This document shows, piece after piece, positions 33,419 to 60,627 of a stretch of 64,000 nucleotides of DNA. A model generated the notes under the pieces. It searched no databases. It was given only the letters and a program-made list of their open reading frames with translations, and was not told the origin of the DNA. The stretch is taken from the NCBI GenBank assembly GCA_028691535.1, contig JAQUZB010000002.1, positions 1 to 64,000 on the forward strand, written 5' to 3'. Origin of the DNA: Candidatus Altimarinota bacterium. Its GTDB lineage: Bacteria; Patescibacteriota; Gracilibacteria; BD1-5; UBA6164. The translations under genes and the position numbers were made by a program. The first letter of the stretch is position 1. Each line of letters opens with the position of its first letter.

Positions 33419-35257
33419 GTGGAAAAACAAGAAAAACTAATAGAACTTGTAACTAAGAGAATATCTTGAGATACATATTGATATATTAAAAAAATTGAGA
33501 TTGAAAAACCTGCTAAATCTGATGAAAGAGAAATCATTGAATCAGAAAAGGAGTATAAGGCAGCATTAGCATATATAAAGGATATAATATCTCCTGCTTT
33601 TATGAAGATTTATCCTGATAAAATTCAAATTAACAATACAATTGTTAAGACTTTTTTTGTTTATGCATATCCAAATTTTTTAGAATGAAACTGGTTATCA
33701 CCTATCATAAATTGGGATGTTAAATTTGATATGAGTTTATTTATCTACCCTATTGAATCTGGTTTTATTCAAAAATATTTAAAGAAAAGACTTACTCAAC
33801 TTTATTCTGAAAGAAGTATAAATGCTGAAAAATGATTATTAAATGATCCAGCAATTGAAGCTCAAATTCAAGATGTAGAAGAACTTAGACATAAACTTAC
33901 TAGATGAGAAGAAAAATATTTTCATTTTTGATTATATATAACAATTTATTGAGATACTGAAGAACAAGTAAATAGGATTTGAAAAGATATAGAAACTATA
34001 TTAGCTGGTAGAAATGTATTACAAAAACAAGCTTTTCTTAGAAGTGAACAAGCTTTTATATCAACTTGACCTTTCTGTAAAGATGAATTATGAGTTTATA
34101 GAAATATTTCAACAGGTTGATTATCTACAACATTTCCATTTTCATCAAGTACTCTAACTCATGATGATGGTATACTTTATGGTATAAATACTCATAATAA
34201 TTCTCTAATTATATTTGATAGATTTAAAACTGAAAATGCAAATATGACTGTATTTGCAAAATCTGGTTGAGGTAAATCTTTTGCTATAAAACTTGAAATA
34301 CTTAGAAGTTTGATGTTTTGAACTGATGTTATAGTTATAGATCCTGAAAATGAATATAAAGCTCTGATTGATAAAGTTGGATGAAGTTATTTAGATGTAT
34401 CTTTAAATTCAAATCAAAGAATAAATCCTTTTGACCTACCACTTTGACTAAAAGATCAAGATGAAAGACCAGGAGATTTACTTAGAAATGCTATTATAAA
34501 CTTACTTGGTTTGATGAATTTGATGCTTGGTAAATTGGATCCAGAAGAAGCATCTATCATGGAAAAAGCTCTTGTTACAACTTATAGTTTAAAATGAATT
34601 ACTCTTGAAGATGACAATATAATAGGAAAAGAAATTCCAATTATGAAAGATTTACAAGATGTACTTGAAACTATGGATTGAGCTTGAAGTATGGTAAGAA
34701 GGATAGAAAAATTTACTTCATGAATATTTTCTTGAATATTTTCTCAAAAAACAAATATTGATTTATGAGATGGTTTACAAGTATTTTCAGTTAGAGATTT
34801 AGATGATATACTTAGACCAATTGCCATGTATGTAATTCTTAATCATATATGGAACAAAGTTAGATCTAGTAATAAAAAAAGATTCTTAGTTATAGATGAA
34901 GCTTGGAATATTATGCAATATGAAGATTCAGCAAAATTTCTTTTCTGACTTGTAAAAAGAGCCAGAAAATATAATCTATGAGTTACAACAATAACACAAG
35001 ATGTGGAAGATTTTGTTTGAAGTCCTTATGGAAAGCCAATAATGACAAACTCATCAATACAATTACTTTTAAAACAATCTAGTGCTTCAATTGATGTATT
35101 ACAAAATATATACAAACTTACAGAACAAGAAAAATACATATTACTAAATGCTTCTGTTTGACAATGATTATTTTTTGCTGGTACTGAACATGTATGAATT
35201 CAGGTTGTAGCGAGTTACTACGAAGAACAAGTAATTACAACAAACCCAAATAGATAA
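33419..35257 (+). CDS. VirB4/TrsE-type conjugation ATPase
   Basis: This 612-residue ATPase of type IV secretion has an N-terminal VirB4-like region, then AKSGGGKSF as Walker A (about 279-287), VIDPENEY shortly after, and FLVIDEAWN as Walker B (about 487). The tail has VTTITQDVEDF and the STASVLLKQ-type stretch as TNSSIQLLLKQS. It starts with GTG; the nearest ATG upstream is followed by TAA. No VirB6/VirB8 genes are adjacent. The VirD4-like protein at 7452-9920 is the likely partner. A role in DNA uptake or secretion is possible (inference). Confidence 0.88.
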
Positions 35258-38763: not shown

Positions 38764-38838
38764 GCTCCCATCGTCTAGTGGTTAGGACACGGCCTTCTCA
38801 AGGCTGGAACTGGAGTTCAATTCTCCATGGGAGTACCA
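38764..38838 (+). tRNA. tRNA-Glu (anticodon CTC)
   Basis: A full cloverleaf can be drawn. The acceptor GCTCCCA pairs with TGGGAGT (one G-T), and CCA is encoded at the 3' end. The D stem is GTCT/GGAC, the anticodon stem CGGCC/GGCTG, and the T stem TGGAG/CTCCA around TTCAATT. The seven-base loop TTCTCAA puts CTC at positions 34-36, decoding GAG. The TCGTCTAGTGG block is Glu-like. The 3' part overlaps, on the other strand, the end of a serine recombinase frame. Confidence 0.95.
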
Positions 38839-40281
38839 AACAAGAAAATTAATATTTTTTATAAGATTGAAGAGGTTGTTTTCCTTTATAACAACCTCTT
38901 TTTTGTTGTTTATAATGAGTTCGCAATTCATCGCTCTGATAATTTTTCACTTAATATCATTATTTCCATTAATATAAGTCCCAGAAAGGTTTTCTATGAG
39001 TTCGCAATACTCTGAAATACTTCTCTCAATATTTTCATCTCATTGATTTAATCAATTAATTTTTTCTTTATTATTATTTATATCATTTTCAATTTCTTTT
39101 CTCTTTTCATCATATTCTTCTTTATTAATTTCTGAATCAAGATACATGTTAAATAAATTCTTTTTTCTTGTTTCCATTTTATCAATTTCTTTTTCTATTT
39201 TTATCTTTGATTTTTCTATATCATCATTTTTTGTTTTATAATAATTTTTTAAATATTCTTTAACTAATAAAACAAATTCATGAGGAAAATCATATTGTTT
39301 TATATGTTTTCATATTTCATTAAATAAATGTAATTGAGATACATTTATATAATCCGTTGCTATTTCATTATTATTATGATAATAAATATACTTTTTTCAA
39401 CTTTTCTTTGTTTTTTCATATCAGTATAATATATTTCATTCAGTATCTTTAAGTATATTGTAAAAATATTTTGGAAATTCAGCAGGGATAATTGTTCTTC
39501 AAGATTTTATTCAATTTACCGCATTAAAAAGTTCCTCACTTATTAATGGTTCATATCATTTAGTTGTTATAAACTCTCTAATTCCAGCAAATTCTTGAAT
39601 TCAGTAGTATTTTGTATTTTGTAACATTTGTCTTGCTCTTTCTGAATTCCGTTTTTTTCATACTTTTTCATTGACATAATTAGCAATTTTTAATAGTGAT
39701 ATTCATTCTTTTCTCATTAAAAAACAATCTCTCACTATTTTTGCTTCTTCTTCAATAACTTGAATATCTTTATTTCATTTTGCCCCTACATTTTTATATC
39801 ATAAAACTGCTTTTCACATCCATTTTCAATCTTTTACTGCTGTTTGCATTTTATCTCTCACATCTTTACTTCTATCTTCATTATCCATTTTAGATAAAGA
39901 CAAATCCAACTGCAATAAAAATTTATCTCTATTATTTAAAGATAAATATTCTCTAGAAGTACAATAAACTCATTTAATTTGTTTTTTATCTAATAGATCA
40001 ACAATTCTAGAGTTATCAATATTATTTCTTGACAATCTTTTTGGTTCATCAATAACAATATAATCAATTTTTCATTTTTTACATATATCTATCATTTTAT
40101 TAAATCATTCTCTTTTGAACTCTATTTTTGCACTCTTAGACTCAACAATTTCCTCAATAACCTCAAGTTTCTTAAATTTTATAACATTATGACAATTTCT
40201 TAATTGATGAGGTAATGAATTTTGTTGTAGTTCATCCTTATCGGTAGATTTTCTACAATATATAATGCAATTTTCTTTCAT
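38782..40281 (-). CDS. Large serine recombinase reading into tRNA-Glu antisense
   Basis: This 499-residue protein has the serine resolvase/invertase domain (about 1-145) with catalytic Ser12 in YCRKSTD, the IDEPKRLSRNN motif and SLSKMDNEDRSKDV on the E-helix. A Recombinase domain (about 165-260) and a coiled coil (about 370-450) follow. The last 18 residues (WYSHGELNSSSSLEKAVS) are encoded by the antisense of the tRNA-Glu. This suggests insertion at the tRNA and a junction-created C-terminus. The zinc-ribbon cysteines of many relatives are missing. A relative lies at 56568-58052. Confidence 0.9.
38870..38904 (+). terminator. Hairpin terminator of tRNA-Glu
   Basis: AAGAGGTTGTT pairs with AACAACCTCTT, followed by a T-run. 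It lies within the recombinase frame on the other strand. Confidence 0.8.
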
Positions 40282-41259: not shown

Positions 41260-42192
41260 TTATTTTATTAATCCCTCTAAAATTCATTTTACTCTATCTA
41301 CAAATCAATTTCTTGTTTTTTCAACTTCTCTTTGAGTTTTTCATTGCTCTTTTACTCAATTCATTTCATTAATTTTTTTATCTCTTACTTCAATTCTTCT
41401 CAAACAATCATCATACATTTTTTGTGATATAAGAGGATTTCATTTTGTTGGTTTTAAATATTCATCTAATTCACTTTTTGTAACCTCCATTCACATCCTT
41501 ATTCATTGTGCTGTTTGATAAAATCTAGTATCACTACATTGATTTGGTAACTCCTGAACTGCTCTTTTTAATAATCTTGGTATATCATCATTTGGAATAT
41601 ATCATTTTCAAGCAAAATACATTACATCCTTTATACGAGCAACTCAAGAAATTATCATATTATTTGCCGATTTTAACTTTATCATTTCAATATTATCTCA
41701 TCACTTAATAGTTTTCATTAATCAATAAACTCTTTGAATTTCTTCATAAAAGTTTATATTGTCTACTCATCTTACAAATTCAGTATTTACTTTTCAATTA
41801 GGTAAAAATTGTGATATTTCTTGTCAATTTTTGAATAATTTTCAATTTTTTACTTGATATCAAGAATCTCTTAAAGCATAATCTAAATCATAATCTGTAA
41901 AAGTTCAATTAATACTTGTATAATATTCTACTCAAGTATCTTTTCAATATTTATAAAATGAATGAACTTCTCATTTTGAATTAATAACAACTCAAATATT
42001 TCATATTAGGTCAAATCTTAAAGTTTCGATTTTTTCTTGAGAAACTCATGCTTTTAATAAACTTTTTTTCATTCATTCAATAATAGTTTGTTTTTGTTTT
42101 TCAATAACACTATTTAAAACCTCTTGATGGTTTTTTTGTTCTCAAGGTATTTGATGTATTATTGCAGGTTGTTGTATTTGTAAATCTCCCAT
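41260..42192 (-). CDS. Protein of unknown function in element operon
   Basis: This 310-residue protein begins MGDLQIQQPAI and is mostly alternating helix and strand, with many TGA glycines and no visible membrane segment. One short Gln-rich start and a central FTDYDLDYALRDS stretch are the only notable parts. No family is recognised. It lies 15 bp downstream of the 957-residue gene. Tail end of a three-gene operon (45420 to 41260). Confidence 0.68.
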
Positions 42193-42207
42193 AATTTTTA
42201 ATTAATA

Positions 42208-45081
42208 TTAAATATTAGACTCGTCGCTTTCTTTTTGTTTTTCTTGTATTTTTCTTTTTTCAATATATTTCTCAAAAAACTCTCTCATCATTTTTACATC
42301 TTTTAATTCTAATCTCCAAACAAACTCTCTTCATTCAACTTTTACTTTCATATCAATTCATCAAGATATATCTTTTCATTCTCATATCATTTCAACTAAT
42401 TTATCAAATTCAGCAAGTCTTTGTTCCTTAAATTCTTTAATAAATCTATTTCATTCAATTTCATCAACAAAAACTCATCTTTCTTTTAATATTGCAACAT
42501 AAGTATCAACTTCGCTATCTATTAACTCTTGTGCTTTTGTTCTATCTCATCAATTTTTTAATAATTCTTGGAATCTTCCTGTTAAATTCATTCATTCAAA
42601 TCATTTCATTAAATCCTCGATATTTTTTCATTTTAAGGTTTCTTGTATCGTTTTTACTCAAGTATTTAGATTAGTACTTTCTTTAGGAAAATTTTGGTCT
42701 TTTGCTTGTTTTGAATTATCCTTAGAATTTTGAACTTGATTTTGATTTGGTAAAACTGCAGTTGGAGTATCTGTATTTCAAGTTCAAGATTTTGCTAATA
42801 AATCTGCATTTTCATCTCTCAAAGTTTTATATTCTTTCTTTTTAGTTTTTAATTCCTCACTTACTTCTTTGTGTGATTTTCATTTATTTCTTGCAATATT
42901 TCTTTCTTGTCTTAATGCTCTAATTTCTTTTTTTAATCATTCTATCTGTATTATAAATTCATTCTCTTTTGGTATAACTGTAATTTTTGGAGGAGGTGAT
43001 TTTTCAAATAAACTTGCAACTGCTTTATCAGATTGCCTTAATCATATAATTAATGGAACTATAAATTTTAACTCATCTCATACAAACTCTCAAAATTTCT
43101 CCCATGTATAATTTCAATCAACATCTTTTGGTATTCATTCTCTTCAAACTATCTCTCATAAACTTCATCTAATTATAATATCTGTTCAAAGCAATGCTCA
43201 AGTATCAAGAGTAATATTTTTTGCTTCGTTTAATATTGGAGATTTAATATTAAAACTTTCTTTTAATTTATCAAGTGGCATAATCCTCAAAACTCAAAGA
43301 AAAGCAATAGTTCTTGTTAAATCATAATAGTTATAATCTTTTTTAATATCTCAAATATTTTCACGATTTAATATTCAATTTAATGCTGTATAAGTTCAAT
43401 AAAATCAAGTTCATTCAACCAATACTCAAGTTCATGCTTTTACAAATCTATTAGTATTTATTGTAGCAGGTGCAACTTTTCATAATAATAGTCATCATCA
43501 TTTTGCTATTATTCATCATACAAATCAAGAAACATACATTATTGCTATTTGTTCTACTAATGTTTTAGAAAAACTAGATATTCAATTAAAGTTTTTATCA
43601 CTTACTTTACTTCAAATTCACTCTATATCAGCATAAAGATTTAATGCTGTATCTTTCTTTGCTAAATTTTCTACAAATTTTGAATTATTTTCTAAAACTT
43701 GATTTATAATAGTTTTTTCAAATAAACTAAATACCATTTCTTGTTTTACTTTTTCTAATTGTTCTTGTAAGTTTTTTGGATTTAATGCTTTTTTTCTTTC
43801 ATTTTCTAGTTTTTCTTTTTCACTTTCAGGGATTCTTGCTTTTAAATAATCAAATTGTTTATTAACTTCATCTTCTAGAGATTTTTTTAATTTATCATTG
43901 TCTAATACTTTTAAACTTTCTTTTAAATCCTCGTATAAATCTTTTATAAACTCATTTTTATCTTTTTCACTTTTTAATCATAATTTATCTAAAACTTTTG
44001 AATTTGTGAGAAATGTTTTTAGTTGTTCTTTTCATCATTTTAATGAATCAAATAATCCTTTTTTCTTTGTTTCATCAAAATTTTCAAGTAATGAAAATGT
44101 TGTGTTTATGTCTGTTCTTTTTCTTAATTCTTTGTTATTTAAAACATTTCAAGTTATTCTTGATGATATTGCTTCTTTTGTATCTAAAATTAAATTATTG
44201 TCATCTGCTCATAATCTATCTATTTGTCTTATCTTAGAGAAAATTTGTAATTTTATTTCTTCTGCTTTTGATGGTGTTAAATTTGGAGTTAATAATAATT
44301 TTCTAATCTCTGCATAGGTTTCATTTACTCATTTTGTAGTTGCTTCGTGATATAGTATTCAATTTATGAGTGGTTGTTCCATAAATCAATCTTCTGATAT
44401 CACTTTTTCAGAAACAAACATTTGATTTACTAAATCTTTTAAATCTAATTTTTTTACTTCATCAAAATTTTGAAGTCTTGCTAAAAATGTTTCTAGGTTT
44501 GTTAATAAAGTTACTTTTTCTCAAATAACTCATATTTGTTTTTCATATCTTTCATCTTTCCCAGTTAGCATTTTAAATTGAATTGCTTCTTTTATGCTTT
44601 GCAAATATTCTTTATACATACTTGCAACATTTCTTATTAAATCTACTTGTATAAGTTTTTGGTCTATTTGTTTTAATTCTTGTTCTTTTGTTTTTAGTTC
44701 AGTTTCTCAAGATTTAACTAATTGCTTTTGATTTTCTGGAGTTAAAGTTATATTTGGTTTTTCTTGTTTTTCAGGAGATTTTTTTGCTTCTGTTTTATGA
44801 GGTCATACTTTAACTTCTGTTTTATTATCATCTCTATTTTCCATTAAAACTTGTTGTAATTTTGAAGTTCTTGAAGCAATAAAATCCTCAATGTAAGGTT
44901 GTGCTTGAGGGTTATTTTTTCAAATTTGAATAATTATATCTTGTAAATCAAATAATGTATAACGATCTGATTCTAAAGATAACATAAGTTTATCAAATTC
45001 TTTGTTTTGAGAATCTTTCAATAACTGCTCTCTATCTATTACAGGTCATGTTTCATTATTTTGTAATAATTGTTCTGCCAT
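42208..45081 (-). CDS. 957-residue coiled-coil protein with central glycine-rich hydrophobic domain
   Basis: The N-terminal half (1-500) is mostly charged helix with long coiled coils. A glycine-rich hydrophobic stretch follows at about 505-570 (YVSGFVGGIIAKGGGLLLGK), in which most glycines are TGA; it resembles a membrane-inserting hairpin. Another hydrophobic block lies near 590-620. The C-terminal third is again helical, with a Pro/Asn linker and a final basic helix. It could be a phage-like, pore or secreted structural protein. I recognise no family. Reading frame and codon pattern are clearly coding. Confidence 0.8.
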
Positions 45082-45087
45082 ATATTT

Positions 45088-45426
45088 TTATAAGTTATCA
45101 ATAGAATTTAGTAAATTTGAAAAATCATCTTGTTCACTTTCAATTTCTTGTCTTTCCTCTAATCTAATTTTTATTCTTGTTTTACTATCAAGTTCAGTTT
45201 TTATTTGCTCAAAACTACAAATATTTTTATCTTTAAAACTTTTTAAAAAAAATAAAACATCTTTTCTTTCTTCATTAAAATATTTTATAAGTGATAATAT
45301 TTGTTTTTCATTTAGTTTATCAAAATATTTTATAATACTACTTCTTGAAAAACTATCAATAAATGCATAATTTTTTATATATTCAAGTAAGTTATTTTCA
45401 TTTATTATCATAATGTTAAATTTCAA
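45088..45426 (-). CDS. Small helical protein, first gene of element operon
   Basis: This 112-residue protein has no TGA codons. It is rich in Lys, Asp, Asn and Leu and looks all-helical (SSIIKYFDKLNEKQILSLIK). A second Met at residue 6 (start 45411) is an equally good start. The stop lies 6 bp before the start of the 957-residue gene. Its upstream region is the structured locus at 45.6 kb. Function unknown. Confidence 0.65.
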   Translation of the reverse strand: MKFNIMIINENNLLEYIKNYAFIDSFSRSSIIKYFDKLNEKQILSLIKYFNEERKDVLFFLKSFKDKNICSFEQIKTELDSKTRIKIRLEERQEIESEQDDFSNLLNSIDNL

Positions 45427-45847
45427 TTTTTTCTATATTTTTATTTAGTGTATCATATATATTTATTTTTTTCAAATATTTTCACTTCTTTTTTACCCTT
45501 TCTTCTTCTCTTACTCTCCCTATTACCTTACCTCTTAACTCGTATATATTATTAGTGTATTTTAATACACTATTTTTTTGTTTTGTATTATATTTTTAAA
45601 ATTTCATTTCTTACTCCGCACCCGTGCCACACACCCCCTCCCTAAAGTGTGGTAAGAGACTAATGGGTCTTAGTTGAATAACTAAGACCCATTAGTCTCG
45701 TCTTGCTTTAGGTATCAGAAAATAAACACGGGTGCGAGATAAGTCAGGGGGTATAGAGTGTGACTTATACTTTTTTTCAAGAAAATATATAAAAACATTA
45801 ATATAATATTCTATACAAGTTTAGATTTTTAATTGTTTAGAAAATAT
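45427..45847. other. Divergent intergenic region with GC-rich structured locus
   Basis: A 421-bp stretch without a gene, placed between divergent operons. It holds a palindrome TAGTGTATT/AATACACTA (45553-45572) and the structured element described separately (45610-45777). TAGTGTAT also occurs near 45445. Confidence 0.6.
45610..45777 (+). ncRNA. Candidate structured RNA or DNA element
   Basis: Three hairpins are visible. H1: CTTAC and CCACAC pair with GTGTGG and GTAAG (45610-45656). H2: a perfect 20-bp stem with GAAT loop (45656-45699). H3: ATAAGTC with GACTTAT (45739-45768), followed by TTTTTTT, like a terminator. Cross pairs link them: CGCACCCGTG (45617-45626) with CACGGGTGCG (45727-45736), ACCCCCT in the H1 loop with AGGGGGT in the H3 loop, and CCTAAAG with CTTTAGG. 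The region is far richer in G and C than its surroundings. It may be an RNA, an origin, or a transfer site. Confidence 0.5.
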
Positions 45848-46720
45848 ATGAAATATTTTGAGAAAGATTGATATTTTTATTTAAAAATTATTCCTTGAGA
45901 TTCTTTTTGAGAAATACTAATTAATTCCGTAAAAGCAAATTTAAATGCTTTTTGGAAAAATTGAATTTGGTTTTGAATTGATATTTATGTTTTTAAGAAA
46001 AATAAAAATATCTATACAGAACAATATATTTACTCAAATAAGTTAGAATGAATCTCATTTATCATTAATTTTTTTGAAAAATTATATGATAAAAAAGTGA
46101 GTTTCTCTCTAAAAGTAAATGAAAAGTTAATTGATTATAATTTTAAAAATACTTTTCAGATATGACAAAGAAACCACGGAGTTTTACAAATTAAAAAAAT
46201 GTGAAGTTTATGAGGAGAAGACTTTTTGTCTTCTTCATCTCTGCATAATGGAATAATCGAAGATTATTCAAATTTTATAAATGAAAATGATGTTATTTTA
46301 ATATCATTTTCGTTCACGAAATGAGATTATAGTTTTTTTGTTAAAGATTATTTGTATGCTAAATATTCAAAAGGTATGGATGATGAAGAAAAACAAAGTT
46401 TTTTGAAGTCATTCACAGAGTCTCAAAACTTTTTTAAATTTAGATATTTCATAAAAACTAATTTCAATAATACTTCTGTTTTAGAAAATATTATTGAAAA
46501 AAATTTAAGGTTGTATGACTCTTTGTATAACAATTATAGTTATATAAAGAAAAAGTGAATTTTTGATTTTGTAGTTGATTATAAAAGGATTATTCAACCC
46601 GAAGCGATTTTGTCACAATGATTATTTTTACCAATATCAAAATTCACAAAAAAACAAATAAATCCAATAATTACTCCAAGTGTAGAGTTAATAGATTCGG
46701 GATTTATTAAAAAATTTTAA
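45848..46720 (+). CDS. Protein of unknown function upstream of HerA-type ATPase
   Basis: This 290-residue protein is rich in Phe, Lys and Asn with many TGA glycines. It looks like a soluble alpha/beta protein with no membrane segment. A central 'FQIGQRNHGVLQIKKM' stretch and the end 'SVELIDSGFIKKF' are the only distinct parts. The next gene, an ATPase, starts 19 bp later, so the pair probably works together, as partner proteins of HerA-like ATPases often do (inference). Confidence 0.7.
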
Positions 46721-46739
46721 TTTATAACTTTTATATATT

Positions 46740-48179
46740 ATGGACAACATAAAAAATTTTATTTGATTTGCTAATAATTCAAATATTGAGGAAGATGTAA
46801 GTTTTTTAAACTTAAATCTAAATTGACTCAAAGCGCAAGGGGTAGGGATTTATTGAAAATCATGAGTAGGTAAAACTTTTTTGGTAAGTAGCATAGTAAC
46901 TTCATTAGTTAAAAGTTCAATTGAAACTCAACTAACTCCTTTAAATACTCTTGAACCTGATACTTTTATAATGTTAGATCCACATAATTCTAATATTCCT
47001 CTCATTTTAGAATTATATAAAAAAATGCTAGATAATAATAAATTATATTCAAGAGAATCTTTATCTTATTTGTATAGTAAAAATTGAAAAGATAATCAAA
47101 AAGTATTTTTTGATTGATACACATTTCATAAGAAATTAATATTTAATCCTATTTTTAGCAAAGAGTTAAATAATAATTTAGATAGATTTGACATTTTTTA
47201 TAACTTCATAATCAATTGAATAAAAAATTATGTTTGAGATTTTTCAGCATTTTGAGCAAGAAATCAAAGTGCTTTGGAAATAGTTATTAAATGATATATG
47301 TTATTTAATATAGAAAACAATAATTTATGAATGAATAAAATTTATTCTTTAAAAGATGTTTATATATTTTTTGATACACTAATGCAAAAAATTTCATTTC
47401 CCTCATACATTAGCGAAGAATTTAAAAAACTTATAAATTCTAAAAACGAGAAAATAAAAAGTATGTGAGATGAGTTATATAACTCATTTAAATCTATTCT
47501 AAATAATATCAAAGAAAATAAATTATTTTACGAAACTGCTATTACGAAACTAAGTATATTTAATCAAATTTGAGAAACTTTAGGACACAATTTATTAAAA
47601 GAAAATTTAACTTTAGATTTTTTTAAACTCATCACAGAAAAGAAAATTGATGTTGAAATTCATTTGTTTAATTTAGAGGATTTTTCAAGTATTGAGAGAA
47701 AATTAATACAAGGGTTTCTAAATTCAGGGGCATATATTTTTGGTGCTTTAAAGAATCATTTAAATAAAAATTTAGGTTATACTTATATTTTTCAAGATGA
47801 GTTTCAAAGTTTTTTAGATTTAAAATGATGAAAAAATTATTTGATAAACGAATTAGAAAAAATAACTAACGAACACAGGAAGAAAAAAGTTATTTTTTGC
47901 CTTATATTTCAATTTATTGTAGAAGAACTAAAAGAACTTTTAAATAATTTTTGAATTCATTTTATATTTGCTTTACCTGACTACCAATCAAGGATTTTTA
48001 CGACAAATTTAACAAATTGAATTAAATGAAACCTAGAAATTACAGAAAAACATATTGCAAATCTTTGAAGATGAGAGTTTTATGCCTCTATTGATACCAA
48101 TACAAATTGATTATGTACGATTTTTTGAAAATCTTTCAATTTGAATAATGAAAAACATACAAATTTATTAGTAAAATAA
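46740..48179 (+). CDS. HerA/VirD4-superfamily DNA-translocating ATPase
   Basis: This 479-residue protein has a Walker A (YGKSGVGKTF) near residue 41 and MLDPHNSNI as the strand after it. A Walker B-like FQDEFQ lies near 353, followed by EKITNEHRKKKVIFCLIFQF, where the Arg/Lys helix resembles the position of the trans-acting finger. This is the HerA/FtsK/TraG type of motor, which moves DNA through a channel or ring. It is shorter than a full TraD. It sits between two element genes. Plasmid transfer or segregation is the likely job (inference). Confidence 0.78.
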
Positions 48180-48184
48180 TTATT

Positions 48185-48925
48185 ATGTTACACCTACAAA
48201 AAAGAGATCTAAATATTTTTATATTGTTAAATTCAATTTGAATTTTAACGAGTAAAAATATTAAAAATATTGTTTCTAATAATACAAAACTTAAAACTTT
48301 AAATCTAAGACTAAATAGTTTGAAAAAAGAGTGATATTTGAAAGAAATAAACAAAAAAGATAGAAGTAAAACGGATTATATGATTTATCAACTTACGAGC
48401 GATAAAATTCTTTTGAGTAGAATTTATTGAGAAACTTGATATGAACTTAATTCTATTCAATATAATCTTTCATATTTACTCTATAATCATCAATTGTTTT
48501 TGTGAAATTTAATATCTTATTTTTTATGAAAAATTAGAGAAAAAAACGAAAGTTTTGAGTTAGATTTTAATAAAATATATTGAAGCAAACAAGTTCAGCA
48601 ATTAATACTTAGAGAACAGAGAAGCAAAGAAAATAAATATAATTATTTAGATAAAATTCCAATACCAGACTTTATGTTTGAAAATAATAATACTTTGTAT
48701 TGTTTTGAACTTGAAAATATGAACTCATACAATCAATTTAAAAACAAAATGATTTTGTATAATGATTTAGAGATTTACAAAAATAATGAAAATTTTTTGC
48801 CTTTATTTAAAAATAGAAAAATAGTTTTAATTATTTGATGTCGTGAGACTAAAAAGACAAAATATGAAGAAATTATTAATGAAAATTTGAATTGAATAAA
48901 GACTTTGATAAAGACTATAGATTAA
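48185..48925 (+). CDS. Replication-relaxation-like wHTH protein
   Basis: This 246-residue protein has an N-terminal winged-helix region (about 1-70: IFILLNSIGILTSKNI, LRLNSLKKEGYLKEI). Its C-terminal part has IPDFMFENNNTLYCFELEN followed by a KMILYNDL helix, the pattern of replication-relaxation proteins of plasmids and conjugative elements (PD...EVE....K...Y). Such proteins regulate replication or transfer. It lies 5 bp downstream of the HerA-type ATPase. The match is by pattern only. Confidence 0.62.
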
Positions 48926-54544: not shown

Positions 54545-54650
54545 GATTATACCATTTAGAATTTTGAAATATTAAAGTTTATACCATTTTGCTAATTTTA
54601 AGTTTTGTGATTATAAAGTAATTTTTATATTTTTTATACCATTTTAGAAA
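54545..54650 (+). repeat. Iteron-like direct repeats (putative origin)
   Basis: TTATACCATTT occurs three times in direct orientation, at 54547-54557, 54579-54589 and 54634-54644. The first and third are followed by TAGAA or TTAGAA, the second by TGCTA. They lie 100-200 bp upstream of the Rep gene, the usual place for Rep-binding iterons. An AT-rich run follows. Confidence 0.65.
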
Positions 54651-54748: not shown

Positions 54749-56488
54749 ATGACTAAAACACAAAATGATAAGTCTTCTTTTGAAAATATGGTATACTTCC
54801 AGAATTTTATAAATTTCTTTCATAATAAAGGTTCTCTTTTTCAACAAAGAAGAGAAATAAAAGATTATAAATTTGAAGTTGATGAAATAGAACTAATTGG
54901 AGAAAACAATAAAAAAGATGAAAAATATTATTATCCAAATATTAATTATAAGTCTATCCAAAAATCTGTATCAAAAAAAGAAAAAACAAATTTATTTTTT
55001 AGTATAAATTGATTTTATAGAAACAGAAAATCTAAAAATCTAAAATCTTTAAATTGTTTTTACTTTGACTTAGATTATAAAGATAATCCAAATATTAAAG
55101 ACAATATGGAAAGTATTATTGAAAAAATACGAGATAGTTTTGATATAATAATAAAATCAAGAAATTGATATCATTTTTATAACTTATTATCTGAATGACA
55201 ATATAAAGTTGATGAAAAAGATAAATATATAAAGGATCGAAAAGAAAAATGAAAGCATTTAGAAAATATTTTCTGAGTCAATTTTGATCCCAAAGTATAT
55301 GATGTTTCAAGGATTTCTAGAATTTGATACTCATACCACCAAAAAAATGATAAGGACCTTTTCATGATTGAAATTATAAAATGAAAGGAACTTATATCTC
55401 CTTTATTTGAAAGACAAAAATTAATTAATCTAACTCCAATAAAAGAGGTAGTAAAATTTGCAATTCAAGATGAATTGATAACAGATGTGCAAATTATAAA
55501 TGAAGACTATTATAGAAATGGAAAATTGAGCGATTGACTAAAAATTGATGATATAACAAACACAATTAAAGATTTTTCAACTCAGAAGAAAAATGAAAAA
55601 ATTACAAAAAAAATTAATGAAAAAATTGAAAATGAATATGATGAGTGACTAAATAAAACAGAGGATGAAGAAGAAAAAATTAATGAAGAAATAACAGAAT
55701 ATATATTAGAATACACCTGAATACCTTATACATTTATAAAAAAAATATTTTTTTATAAATTAATAGAAGATTGAAAAGGTTTTAAAACTGCAGAAGCAGA
55801 CTCAAGAACTTTAACTTATTCATTTTTTGCAAAACATTTTTGAATTCTTTCGGAAAATTGAATTAAAAAAAATATTATTATTCCTAAAGGGATTGAAAAT
55901 ATTTTATACAAATCAAATCTTTCATCTTTAGAATTAAAATATTTTTTAGGTCTTATGAATTTTTCCCAAGGAACAAGAAATAGTATAAATTACTTATGAA
56001 TAAATAAAAAAGTAAGTTTATATAATTTTGCTGATTTTAATTGATTTGACAAAAATGTTTCAAAAATCAAAAAAAATTTAGAAACACTTTTAGAAAATCA
56101 AAAAATTAATGAATCGTATCAATTATTAAAGTGAGAAATTATAAAGGAAAATAAAGAATATTTTATTAGTTATACTATTACTCCTAACTATTTAAAATTA
56201 GATAAAACTATAAAAAATACATATTATTATAACCATTATATAAATAAAAAAATCTTAGATATTCCGACAAATTGAAACTATTTAAATTTAATTTATAGGA
56301 TTTATTTTAATTTAATAAATTTAAATTGTGTAAAAAGTTATACTATATCTAAAGATGAAGTTATAAAAGATATATGAGACTCAAATATTCAGAGAATAAA
56401 GAAAAAGTTAATTGATTTGAGTGAAAGTTTGGATAATGTTTTTAGTGTAGAAATTAAAGGAGATGAATTAGTTTTTGAAAAAAATTAA
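54749..56488 (+). CDS. Plasmid-type replication protein with primase-polymerase (AEP) domain
   Basis: This 579-residue protein carries an archaeo-eukaryotic primase pattern. Motif I is FYFDLD (Asp107, Asp109), motif II is SRNGYHF (His142) and motif III is the Asp185 region (VYDVSRISRIG). The C-terminal half is helical and ends in a region (about 460-579) with a winged-helix look. The gene lies downstream of three iterons. Primase-polymerase Rep proteins start and extend replication of small plasmids and phage-plasmids. Three-motif agreement is good, but by eye only. Confidence 0.72.
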
Positions 56489-56567: not shown

Positions 56568-58052
56568 TTACAAAAGTTCTAAAATTATCTTTTTTAGAGT
56601 ACCAAAAGAGAAATTTAAATATTTAAGACCTTTAAAAAGTGGAGTTTCCGCTATGTGAAGGTCTTTTTTATTGTCTATAAAAAGTTCGAACACATAGTTT
56701 TTTATAATAAGTGTTTTTGTCTCATCAATTACTCTTTTATAGCTTATATAAGGGCTTTTCAAAAGTTCGAACAAAATTTGGGTCTTTGCTAAAAAATCAT
56801 CTTTTTTTTCTTCTTTATTTTTAGTTTTTAAATCTAAAATTTCACTTTCAAATTTATTAAATTTACTTAAATATAACTCTTCACTAACTATTCAATCTAA
56901 CTTCATATCAAGTAAATCTTCTTGTTTTTTCTCTATCTTTTTTATCTCTAAATTATAATCTATCTTATCTAATAAATATTTTTCTTCATCTTGTTTTAAA
57001 AGTTCTATAATCATATCTTTTTGAATATCTAAAAGCATTTGATTATCTACTTTGATATCTTTTAATAATTCTCAAAATTTATCAAATATCTTTTGTTCAT
57101 TTATATTTACTTTCTCTTCACTTCTAGGTTGAGTCATATAGTAAGTATGCCCTTTTTGTAAATATGAACACATAAGTATTCAAGAATTATCTTTTACAAA
57201 TCATTTAAAATGATATTTTCTATATTCTCTTGGTATATTTAAAATAGTTCAAGTTCTTTCATATACTCAAACTCAAATAATATTAGCTTTATCAAAAGTT
57301 TCTTTTGATATCAAAGGTTTATGACTTCAAACTATATCTTTTCAATTCCAATTAAATACTCAATAATAAAACTTTTTACTAACTATTTTTTGCATTCTAC
57401 TAGCACTTAAACTAATTCAAATATTATCTCAATACTTTTCTCTAATAATTAATGCAATAGTACTAAAAGCTTTATTTTGTATCCTTAAATCAAATATTTC
57501 TTTTACTATTTTAGAATCATTTTTATCTATTTCTATTTCTTTATGTCATTTTTTTATAGTGATATTTTTATATCAAAAAGGTGCTTTTCATAAAAATCTT
57601 CAAGTATTGTTTATACAAGTTTCCATTTTATCTTTTACATCTTTACTCCTATCTTCATTATCCATTTTAGATAATGATAAATCTAGTTGTAATAAAAATT
57701 TATCTCTTGAATTATCACTTCTATATTCTCTAGAACTTCAAAGTATTCATTTGATTAATTTTTTATCTAATAAATCTATAATTCTTGAAGTATCTATATT
57801 GTTTCTTGATAATCTTTTAGGCTCATCAATAATAATGAAATCAACTTTTCATTTTTTACATATATCTATAAGCTCATTAAATCAAGGTCTAGTAAATTCA
57901 GTTTTAGCACTTCTACTTTCCCCTATTTGTTTTATAACTTCAAGATTATATTTTTCAGAAACTCTTAAACAATTCTCTAGTTGGTGTTCTAGTGAATTTG
58001 CTTGTTTATCATCTCTATCGGTTGATTTTCTGTAATATATTATTGTTTTCAT
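56568..58052 (-). CDS. Second large serine recombinase
   Basis: This 494-residue protein has the same domain order as the first recombinase: YYRKSTD with catalytic Ser10, IDEPKRLSRNN and LSLSKMDNEDRSKDV (near identical over about 140 residues), a recombinase domain and a coiled-coil tail. The middle and end differ; residues 290-310 carry GILMCSYLQKGHTYY. It is intact and ends in TAA. The HEPN gene lies directly upstream in the same direction, only 2 bp away, so the recombinase probably belongs to that operon. Confidence 0.9.
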
Positions 58053-58054
58053 GA

Positions 58055-59011
58055 TTATTTATTTAAGTCTAATTTAATATTTTCTTTTTCTTCTATATAT
58101 TTTACAAATTCTTCTCAACATTTAAATACAACATCATAAATATCTATTAATTCTTTTTTTGTAATATGAATATATTCTGCTTCATGAATAATTGTATGTC
58201 TTAACTCAATTATTCTATTTAACTCATTTTTTAAATTATAAAATTTTCAAGATTCAACTTTTCTTTTTTTATTTATAATATCAGTGAACTTATATCATGT
58301 GAATTCTTTATATGCTTCATTAATATTTTTGATATTTTGAAAATTGTATTTTTCAGAAATTAATTCTCACAAAGTTAAATCTCAATTAGATATTTTAATT
58401 AGTTCATTGTACGAAAGTCTCTTATCTATTTTATTTTCATTATCTAATTTAGATATTTTACTGTAATTTAAATATCTAATAAAAAAGGTTTTTAGAAAAT
58501 CCTCTAAGCTAGATATTAGAAAAGGTATAATTAAATTAATATAATTACTACTAGGATCCATTAAAGATATAAAATAGAAATATTCTTCATCATCAATATC
58601 ATCTTTTAATCAATGAATCATTCTTAATACTCTCATTTTAGACATTTGAAACTTATGATAAGAAAGCCCACAAGCACGCTCAATTGCACTATAATTAACA
58701 TCTTTCCAACTATTTAATGGCCAATCATTCTTAATATATCATCAAAATTTATTTTTCAAAATTTTTATAATTTCTTTCTGTTTTTCTATATCATATGAAT
58801 ATCTTAATCAAGATGTTCTAGTATGTATCTCTGTATTATTATCAGAGAAATGAATATATAATTCTATAGATGAAAATGATAAAAAATCTTTTTCCTCATA
58901 AAAAAAGTATGTTTCTCTACCATTTTTTCTAAATCAAAAGTCTTTTATTGTTTTTACTAATAAATTATAACTTATTTTTTTTTTAATTATTAAATCAATA
59001 GTTAATGACAT
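58055..59011 (-). CDS. HEPN-domain protein (predicted RNase)
   Basis: This 318-residue protein has a helical C-terminal part with RHTIIH near residues 271-276, which is the RX4H motif of HEPN ribonucleases. N-terminal residues 1-110 are mixed and of unknown fold. HEPN proteins act as RNases in toxin-antitoxin, abortive infection and other defence systems. It is part of a run of reverse-strand genes with a kinase upstream and a recombinase downstream. The motif is short, so the call is moderate. Confidence 0.65.
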
Positions 59012-59034
59012 TTTTTCAAGATAATTAAATAATA

Positions 59035-59562
59035 TTAAGAACATTGAACATCAAAATTTCAAGATTTTTCATTATATGTGGTAGTAATTTTAACTACATT
59101 ATTTTCAGAAAATATTTTAAAAATTTTAATTACATCATCTATATCAATTTGATATATTTTTTCATATATTTTTTTATCAGATGCAACAAGAATATATTTT
59201 AATCCACTTCATTCTTTCCATCAAAAAAATAATTGAGAATGTACAAACTGATGTGTCAAATCTCTAATTGATAATAATTCTTCTATGGGGTTATCATAAT
59301 CGTATTCATCTCAAAAAGGTTGCCATCTAGTTTTCTTTCAAATGAATTTATAAGATTTTACACTTATTTTGTAATGTCTAATATTATCAGTTATTTTATT
59401 TTTTGATTCTAATAATTTTCTAACAAAATAAAATCATATAAAACAATTTTTTTCTAGTTTATAAATCCAGTTATTATATAGTAAAAATCTTAACGAAAAT
59501 TTCTTTAATTCTCTTGATATTACTTCAAGTTCTTTTTTAGGATAATATGACTCGTAAAACAT
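59035..59562 (-). CDS. Helical protein of unknown function in HEPN-kinase operon
   Basis: This 175-residue protein is helical and basic in its first half, with a central SIRDLTHQFVHSQLFFGW segment and a beta-like end. The RD..H..VH pattern is faintly HEPN-like, but spacing does not match. It lies 23 bp upstream of the HEPN gene and 36 bp downstream of the kinase gene. I leave the function open. Confidence 0.6.
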
Positions 59563-59598: not shown

Positions 59599-60627
59599 CT
59601 AAATAATTTCAGAAAAAATTTTTGTTAATTGTTTTTCTAATTCGTTAAAAGTTAGTCATTTTTTACAATACTTTGTTACTCTGATAATAGAAGATTTGTG
59701 ATGTTTTTTTAAATCAATAGTCCATCAACTTTTATTATATATAGCATGTAAGTTAAATACTTGCTCTCAAGCATTATTAAATGACTCTGACATTATTTCA
59801 TTTCAATTAAATCTAATTGGGTTCCAAAAATACTTTAAATTTAATTTTATAATATCTTTTCTAAATTCCTTAATTGTTTTATATCTTTTTTCTAAATCTA
59901 TGTTAATTAACTTATTAATAATTTTCTTAATTTTTTTAGGAATATGAAGTAAATATTTTTTTCTATCTGGGAATTTTCACTTTAATATTAATTCTTCTCT
60001 ATTTCATTTTATTAACTGTCTCAAATAATGTACATCACCATTTATTAATCTATATAATGTAACTCATAACATATATATATCTGTTTGAATAGTTGGATTA
60101 GCAGCATTTTCTAAATACTCAGGAGGTTTATTAAGATTATATATTCATTTATATCTACTTTCTCATTCACTATTTTTAATATTAGATAATCAAAAATCTG
60201 ATAATTTATAACTAAATTCTTCTTTAATAAGAATATTTCAAGGTTTAATATCCAAATGTAGTATATGGTTATTATGAGCATGTTCTAATGCATAAGAAAT
60301 ATGTTCTGAAATTTTTAATAACTCTTTAATTGAAATATTTTTTTTTCATTCTAAGCTTCATAATTCTAAATACTCCATTTTTATCATAAAATCATCTCAG
60401 ATAAATGAAGCATCGTAAATATCAACTATAAAATCTGATTTTTTCAAATATTCTAGTACCTGAGATTCAAATATATTATGTTCAATTTGTTTTGGATTAG
60501 TGGAATCTGGCTCTATGATTTTTACAGCTTCTAGTTTATCTAAATGGATATTTCTACATAAAATAACTTTTCAAAAATTTCATTTTCATAGTTCTTTAAG
60601 AACTAATAAATTACTAGGTAGTTTCAT
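59599..60627 (-). CDS. Eukaryotic-type Ser/Thr protein kinase
   Basis: This 342-residue protein has a complete Hanks-type kinase domain: GKGNFGKV P-loop (about residues 15-22, all three glycines TGA), the VAVK Lys (AVKIIEP, about 36), catalytic HLDIKPGNIL (about 123-132), DFGLSN (about 144-149), and a PPEYLENA-type P+1 region. Residues 250-342 are an extra helical tail. It has no transmembrane anchor or PASTA domain, so it is a soluble kinase. Within this operon, control of the HEPN protein or of the tail's target is inferred. Confidence 0.88.

Follow-up and report, generated by a model that had tools for sequence, protein, structure and literature searches.

The question raised by this locus is what role is played by a GC-rich, strongly folded segment lying between two divergent operons of an ultra-small bacterium, a Gracilibacterium whose genome reads TGA as glycine (its reading frames are open under code 25). 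The window analysed is positions 1–64,000 of contig JAQUZB010000002.1, and the segment (45610–45777) is flanked by a leftward operon (products of 112, 957, 310 and 294 aa and a serine recombinase) and a rightward operon (295, 479 and 246 aa). Both the setting between divergent operons and the contrast with an AT-rich background had been noted in the original prediction; the operon map confirms the first, and the second is seen in a GC content of 0.44, where the window averages 0.224 (sd 0.048), with only 20 of the ∼63,800 possible 168-nt intervals being equally GC-rich. We conclude, with a probability of roughly 0.7, that the segment is the oriT of an integrative mobilizable element, 17.8 kb long, whose relaxase is a divergent MOB-C-like protein, and that this oriT is recognised partly by the shape of its hairpins. 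An oriT had previously been mentioned as a side suggestion, and it is the function best supported by the structure, its operon linkage and its architectural match to enterococcal plasmids.

The inverted repeats are genuine and far exceed chance expectation. All of the complementary segments originally named, including a perfect 20-bp stem, are present in the sequence. The RNA fold has an energy of −73.8 kcal/mol (z −9.2; none of 200 shuffles folds as low) and the DNA fold has a z of −9.3. A detector of nested perfect inverted repeats picks out this segment alone in the 64 kb; it reports nothing in any of 20 shuffled versions of the window or in seven further stretches from the class Gracilibacteria that lack this relaxase operon.

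The three strongest pairings, of 10, 7 and 20 bp, are nested and not crossing, and the locus is therefore a rod and not a web. The outer stem pairs CGCACCCGTG (45617–45626) with CACGGGTGCG (45727–45736) over 10 bp, the middle stem pairs CCTAAAG (45641–45647) with CTTTAGG (45706–45712) over 7 bp, and the centre is a perfect 20-bp hairpin at 45656–45699 (arms 45656–45675 and 45680–45699) with a GAAT loop. Of the interlocking order that was proposed, a seven-pair crossing of ACCCCCT (45633–45639) with AGGGGGT (45746–45752) is present; crossing is otherwise limited to a small CCACAC/GTGTGG hairpin (45627–45652; arms 45627–45632 and 45647–45652), which is weakly supported, shows no covariation, and has ACCCCCT and most of CCTAAAG in its loop. 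AGGGGGT sits in the loop of a terminator-like plus-strand hairpin, ATAAGTCA/TGACTTAT, that lies outside the conserved core and is followed by a T-run (45739–45777; arms 45739–45746 and 45761–45768; T-run 45771–45777). Beside the structure is a tract (45472–45601) that is 73% purine on the minus strand and ranks among the most extreme 0.6% of positions in the window. As expected of an oriT, the segment has inverted repeats next to a meltable, AT-rich stretch. We also note a palindrome, TAGTGTATTTTAATACACTA, at 45553–45572 between the structure and the left operon, with one mismatch in the G030 contig described below; it is possibly a repressor operator.

The rightward operon (45848–48925, plus strand) starts ∼70–110 bp from the structure. 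Its first gene (45848–46720; the reading frame is called from a TTG at 45833) encodes an N-terminal coupling-protein domain, free-standing here, and is followed by that of a HerA/VirD4-like ATPase (46740–48179; Pfam DUF87 at 4.9e-05, PDB HerA by profile at 1.4e-04) as the candidate coupling protein, and by a candidate relaxase of the Replic_Relax family (48185–48925; PF13814, MOB-C) with a predicted winged helix and PD-(D/E)XK-like C-terminal part. PF13814 is listed as the MOB-C relaxase family (PMC5357655), and PD-(D/E)XK nucleases are relatives of the MOB-C enzymes (PMC8152469). The candidate scores 19.7 bits against a curated cut-off of 25.3; its homologue in G047 scores 23.0, that in G046 gives no match (both genomes are described below), and an enterococcal relaxase (L064) likewise falls under the cut-off at 21.1 bits. 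In the predicted model, which is of moderate confidence (mean pLDDT 67), the N-terminal helical part resembles a winged helix and the C-terminal part weakly suggests a PD-(D/E)XK fold; the top Foldseek matches are to viral cap-snatching endonucleases and are weak (E 0.006), with Holliday-junction resolvases among the weaker ones. The alignment shows conserved PD...E-x-E residues, and a profile alignment to the relaxase of the enterococcal plasmid pAM373 was insignificant (probability 1.4%). The HerA-domain ATPase directly upstream supplies the link to a VirD4/TraG-type coupling protein that is expected of a MOB-C relaxase, and the structure lies next to the operon of both candidates, as is expected of an oriT.

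A covariance model of the structure, run over 353 genomes of the class, matches only the window and two others, G030 and G046. The G030 contig, from another genus, carries a 95% identical copy; the similarity to the window (94%) spans 45408 to 46731, which is the intergenic region and the 295-aa gene, and drops sharply leftward. In this copy one outer-stem pair is broken by a mismatch in the right arm and one of the seven ACCCCCT/AGGGGGT pairs is also broken, and the 3′ hairpin is preserved through two G-U pairs in spite of two substitutions. G046, from another family, has a rod with largely different letters at the corresponding position, upstream of a homologous operon whose 295-aa homologue is 47–49% identical. 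Its centre is 19 bp (AGAGGCTGGGTAGTCATAG), its 9-bp middle stem (ACCTAATAG/CTATTAGGT) is the counterpart of the CCTAAAG stem, and its 14-bp outer stem (TTACTACCATCTTA) differs from that of the window; the CCAC/GTGG of the small hairpin is also found there. Covariation among homologues had been put forward as a check, and compensatory changes were indeed found in the nested stems. Between the window and G046, 14 of 37 pairs are altered on both sides, a count that none of 500 shuffles reach and for which slid controls give 0–5; since two of the three sequences are nearly identical, this amounts to a single comparison, and the covariation of the middle stem goes uncounted because the alignment displaces that stem by one column.

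A further lineage, G047, was missed by the covariance model and found by inspection of hairpins. It contains two related elements (L020 on contig C8 and L021 on contig C19) in which the N-terminal domain is fused to the ATPase, and the structures are ∼50 bp downstream of the Replic_Relax gene, in the opposite orientation relative to the operon. Their outer stems are of 17–20 bp (CCTGCCARCCCCTCACA...) and their centres of 20 bp (AGAAGTATAWT...), and central hairpins of 19–20 bp with differing sequences occupy the corresponding place in G046, L020 and L021. The hairpins of L020 and L021 show compensatory differences from each other, providing a second covarying pair. A purine-rich strand of ∼180 bp follows the G047 structures, and the G046 tract resembles that of the window; the window and G047 arrangements are alike in that the structure adjoins the operon and the purine tract is directed away from it. 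As an aside, L020 and L021 have related backbones within one genome and hairpins that differ compensatorily, as if co-resident elements were being kept apart.

The structures of the Gracilibacteria form three independent sequence classes, and linkage to the operon is retained in three lineages despite the changed position. Their conserved core is the nested rod of outer stem, short middle stem and 20-bp perfect hairpin. Since its position and orientation relative to the genes vary between G047 and the window, it is hard to see as a 5′ leader and natural as a DNA site; the structure is a conserved one at the level of DNA, and its pairing is under strong selection. The N-domain/ATPase/Replic_Relax operon is itself rare, and the structure is found with every copy whose flanks are available. 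The genes of the 112-, 957- and 310-aa proteins are present without the structure in G125 and G014. We note that this cargo module (310, 957 and 112 aa, 41260–45426) has hardly any Pfam match and is shared with these other elements of genus g10. Searches with the DNA of the structure against plasmid and phage sequences gave no match, and neither did protein searches of IMG/VR. A 17-nt match to a hairpin arm in G017 was read as lying inside the gene for RNA polymerase subunit alpha and was taken as chance.

The locus is part of a bounded, integrated element. The serine recombinase, or integrase, at the tRNA-Glu end (38782–40281, minus strand) matches Pfam Resolvase (3.4e-22) and Recombinase (1.1e-11), and an att-like core, GAGTACCAAA, is found on the plus strand at the 3′ end of tRNA-Glu (38831–38840) and at 56597–56606, with a further copy at contig position 67399. 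The sequence flanking the 56597 copy matches that beside tRNA-Glu in a congener, G002, which therefore lacks the segment 38831–56597, and synteny likewise shows the element to be missing from the corresponding tRNA-Glu of G002; the att-like ends and this empty site together define an element of 17.8 kb. An integrase and att direct repeats at a particular site in the host are what is expected of an integrative mobilizable element. Near its right end there are three iteron-like repeats, TTATACCATTT (54547–54645, plus strand), a candidate replication origin, followed by the gene of a putative primase-like replication protein, so named from its sequence motifs (54749–56488, plus strand), which has a homologue in the G047 elements (BLASTP 2e-55) that is likewise accompanied by iteron-like repeats.

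The closest architectural parallels are in enterococcal plasmids. In pAM373 (PLSDB type MOBC), a nested inverted repeat of 18 bp and 25 bp, with 12-bp direct repeats, is located between the TraG-like and Replic_Relax genes, and the same nested repeat recurs in six more enterococcal plasmids, although several of the seven are closely related and these are not seven independent cases. Outer stems in these plasmids are 17–22 bp, inner perfect hairpins are 18–27 bp and the span is ∼140–165 bp; pP6-4 of E. mundtii, with 17, 9 and 18 bp, has a three-step rod like that of the window. The window shares with them the outer stem, the internal loops, the inner perfect hairpin and the adjacent coupling-protein and Replic_Relax genes. 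There is no sequence similarity, the match being one of architecture, and the window differs in its shorter outer stem (10 bp) and tiny loop, in having a purine-rich tract where pAM373 has 12-bp direct repeats, in placing the structure upstream of the operon, where the plasmids have theirs between the genes, and in its patescibacterial host in which TGA is glycine. In its mapping paper, the second oriT of pAD1 is reported to have a large inverted repeat together with direct repeats. Other authors mention inverted repeats in the oriTs of pAD1 and pAM373, and describe oriTs as often being near relaxosome genes (PMC5587640).

As an element, the closest parallel is with streptococcal mobilizable elements of class 8, a described class that combines a serine integrase, VirD4 and MobC (PMC5357655). 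The same trio of functions is present here, also in an integrated element in which a secretion channel is unrecognised, whereas in the present element the coupling protein is split into two genes, there is a primase-like replication gene of its own with iterons, and the cargo is without assigned function.

Several observations count against the oriT reading. The relaxase candidate is below the cut-off and its structural matches are weak, there are only three sequence classes in the Gracilibacteria, and the pAM373 match is architectural. Of 380 sampled Patescibacteria genomes, 37 encode a PF13814 protein, and none of the 40 other Patescibacteria PF13814 loci examined (L099–L138) has the nested architecture, which is therefore not a general feature of the protein family; a HerA-like ATPase gene is nearby in eight of these 40, directly upstream in several. 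Patescibacteria MOB-C relaxases near T4CP genes have been described and the window agrees with these in relaxase Pfam family and coupling-protein neighbourhood, but most Patescibacteria T4SSs are thought to be non-conjugative (PMC12102498). That report makes no mention of oriT, and a limited, non-exhaustive literature search found no earlier proposal of an oriT in Patescibacteria.

The main rival is that the locus specifies a structured regulatory RNA, either a leader or a small RNA, which is transcribed rightward, ends at the T-run at 45771–45777 and attenuates the coupling-protein operon. The very stable fold and the G-U pairs that keep the G030 3′ hairpin are consistent with this, as are terminator-like hairpins before the first gene in both the window and G046, but the conserved stems are all Watson-Crick with no G-U, and the G047 structures are downstream of the operon in reversed relative orientation. 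The predicted terminator-like end is present as a hairpin and T-run but is not conserved in type, with a different hairpin and T-run preceding the gene in G046. The crossing pair is absent from homologues other than the 95% identical G030 copy, and the structure can also follow the operon, on the opposite relative strand, so that the pseudoknot or kissing RNA that had been envisaged was not supported. RNA folding has no consistent strand preference, the s-strand being better in four loci and worse in one. The earlier statement that no RNA family matches holds against Rfam 15, in which a search at gathering level gave none and a lax search gave only sub-cut-off miRNA matches attributable to chance. 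A ∼165-nt transcript ending at the T-run is possible, although it is not needed by the evidence, and we regard the regulatory RNA as unlikely. A retron-like ncRNA (a long hairpin with a1/a2-type repeats) was rejected, the next gene encoding the coupling-protein N-domain and not a reverse transcriptase.

Three other explanations place the function in DNA. An sso/ssi/Frpo-like single-strand initiation site or promoter would prime the complementary strand in the recipient, with the oriT elsewhere nearby; known sites include structured single-strand origins (PMC5714925), and the perfect DNA-level hairpins, purine-rich neighbouring tract and adjacent transfer genes would suit one. The stems of the different loci have no common promoter-like or sso motif that we could see, however, and the nested design fits the coupling-protein/relaxase interval of MOB-C plasmids, such that we think this quite improbable. 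A vegetative replication origin could also be a GC-rich, structured, non-coding site between divergent operons, but the iteron-like repeats and primase-like gene are together at 54.5–56.5 kb, 9 kb from the structure, with iteron-like repeats also in G047; the replication origin probably lies elsewhere, and one at the structure is very improbable. Lastly, this genome has many long, perfect terminator hairpins rich in A/T, as a bidirectional terminator, insulator or chance palindrome would have it, but these are without a nested GC-rich outer stem, the divergent gene starts that flank the structure need no terminator, and the conservation is compensatory; this explanation is scarcely credible.

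If the structure is an oriT, an order of events can be proposed. The serine integrase would first excise the element, and the Replic_Relax protein, as a MOB-C-type, PD-(D/E)XK-like nickase, would bind the nested inverted repeat together with accessory proteins. The repeat could be extruded, or could fold into a hairpin when single-stranded, and one strand would be nicked in or beside the structure; the adjacent purine-rich, easily melted tract would mark the side to be unwound or the first to enter. The HerA/VirD4-like ATPase and the separate N-terminal domain would couple this strand to a type IV secretion channel for transfer; because no secretion-channel gene is recognised within the 17.8-kb element, we propose that the channel would come from the host chromosome or from another element.

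The candidate oriT offers a concrete handle on whether these ultra-small bacteria engage in conjugative DNA exchange. With a bounded element, an integrase, a coupling protein, a divergent candidate relaxase and a candidate cis site all in hand, a simple nicking or mobilisation test is possible, and architecture provides a way of finding oriTs where sequence comparison fails. A more general idea, which we offer tentatively and consider doubtful, is that MOB-C-type relaxases read oriT mainly by the shape of nested hairpins, so that oriTs built alike but sharing no sequence operate in Firmicutes plasmids and in Patescibacteria elements, and that the Patescibacteria have functional conjugative mobilisation which is missed by sequence-based relaxase scans.

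Two features outside of the element were also observed. In the flanking host region, a TraG P-loop/VirB4-like ATPase gene (33419–35257) lies beside the rplK (L11) gene, and it possibly encodes an ATPase of a chromosomal secretion channel that the element could use in trans. The att-like core at 56597 is also the start of a second island (L012), which is inserted in tandem at the same tRNA-Glu site and extends over 10.8 kb to contig position 67399. Its genes include a serine recombinase (56568–58052), a RiboL-PSP-HEPN protein (58055–59062) and a Ser/Thr protein kinase (59599–60627), and the HEPN and kinase genes are possibly defence cargo.
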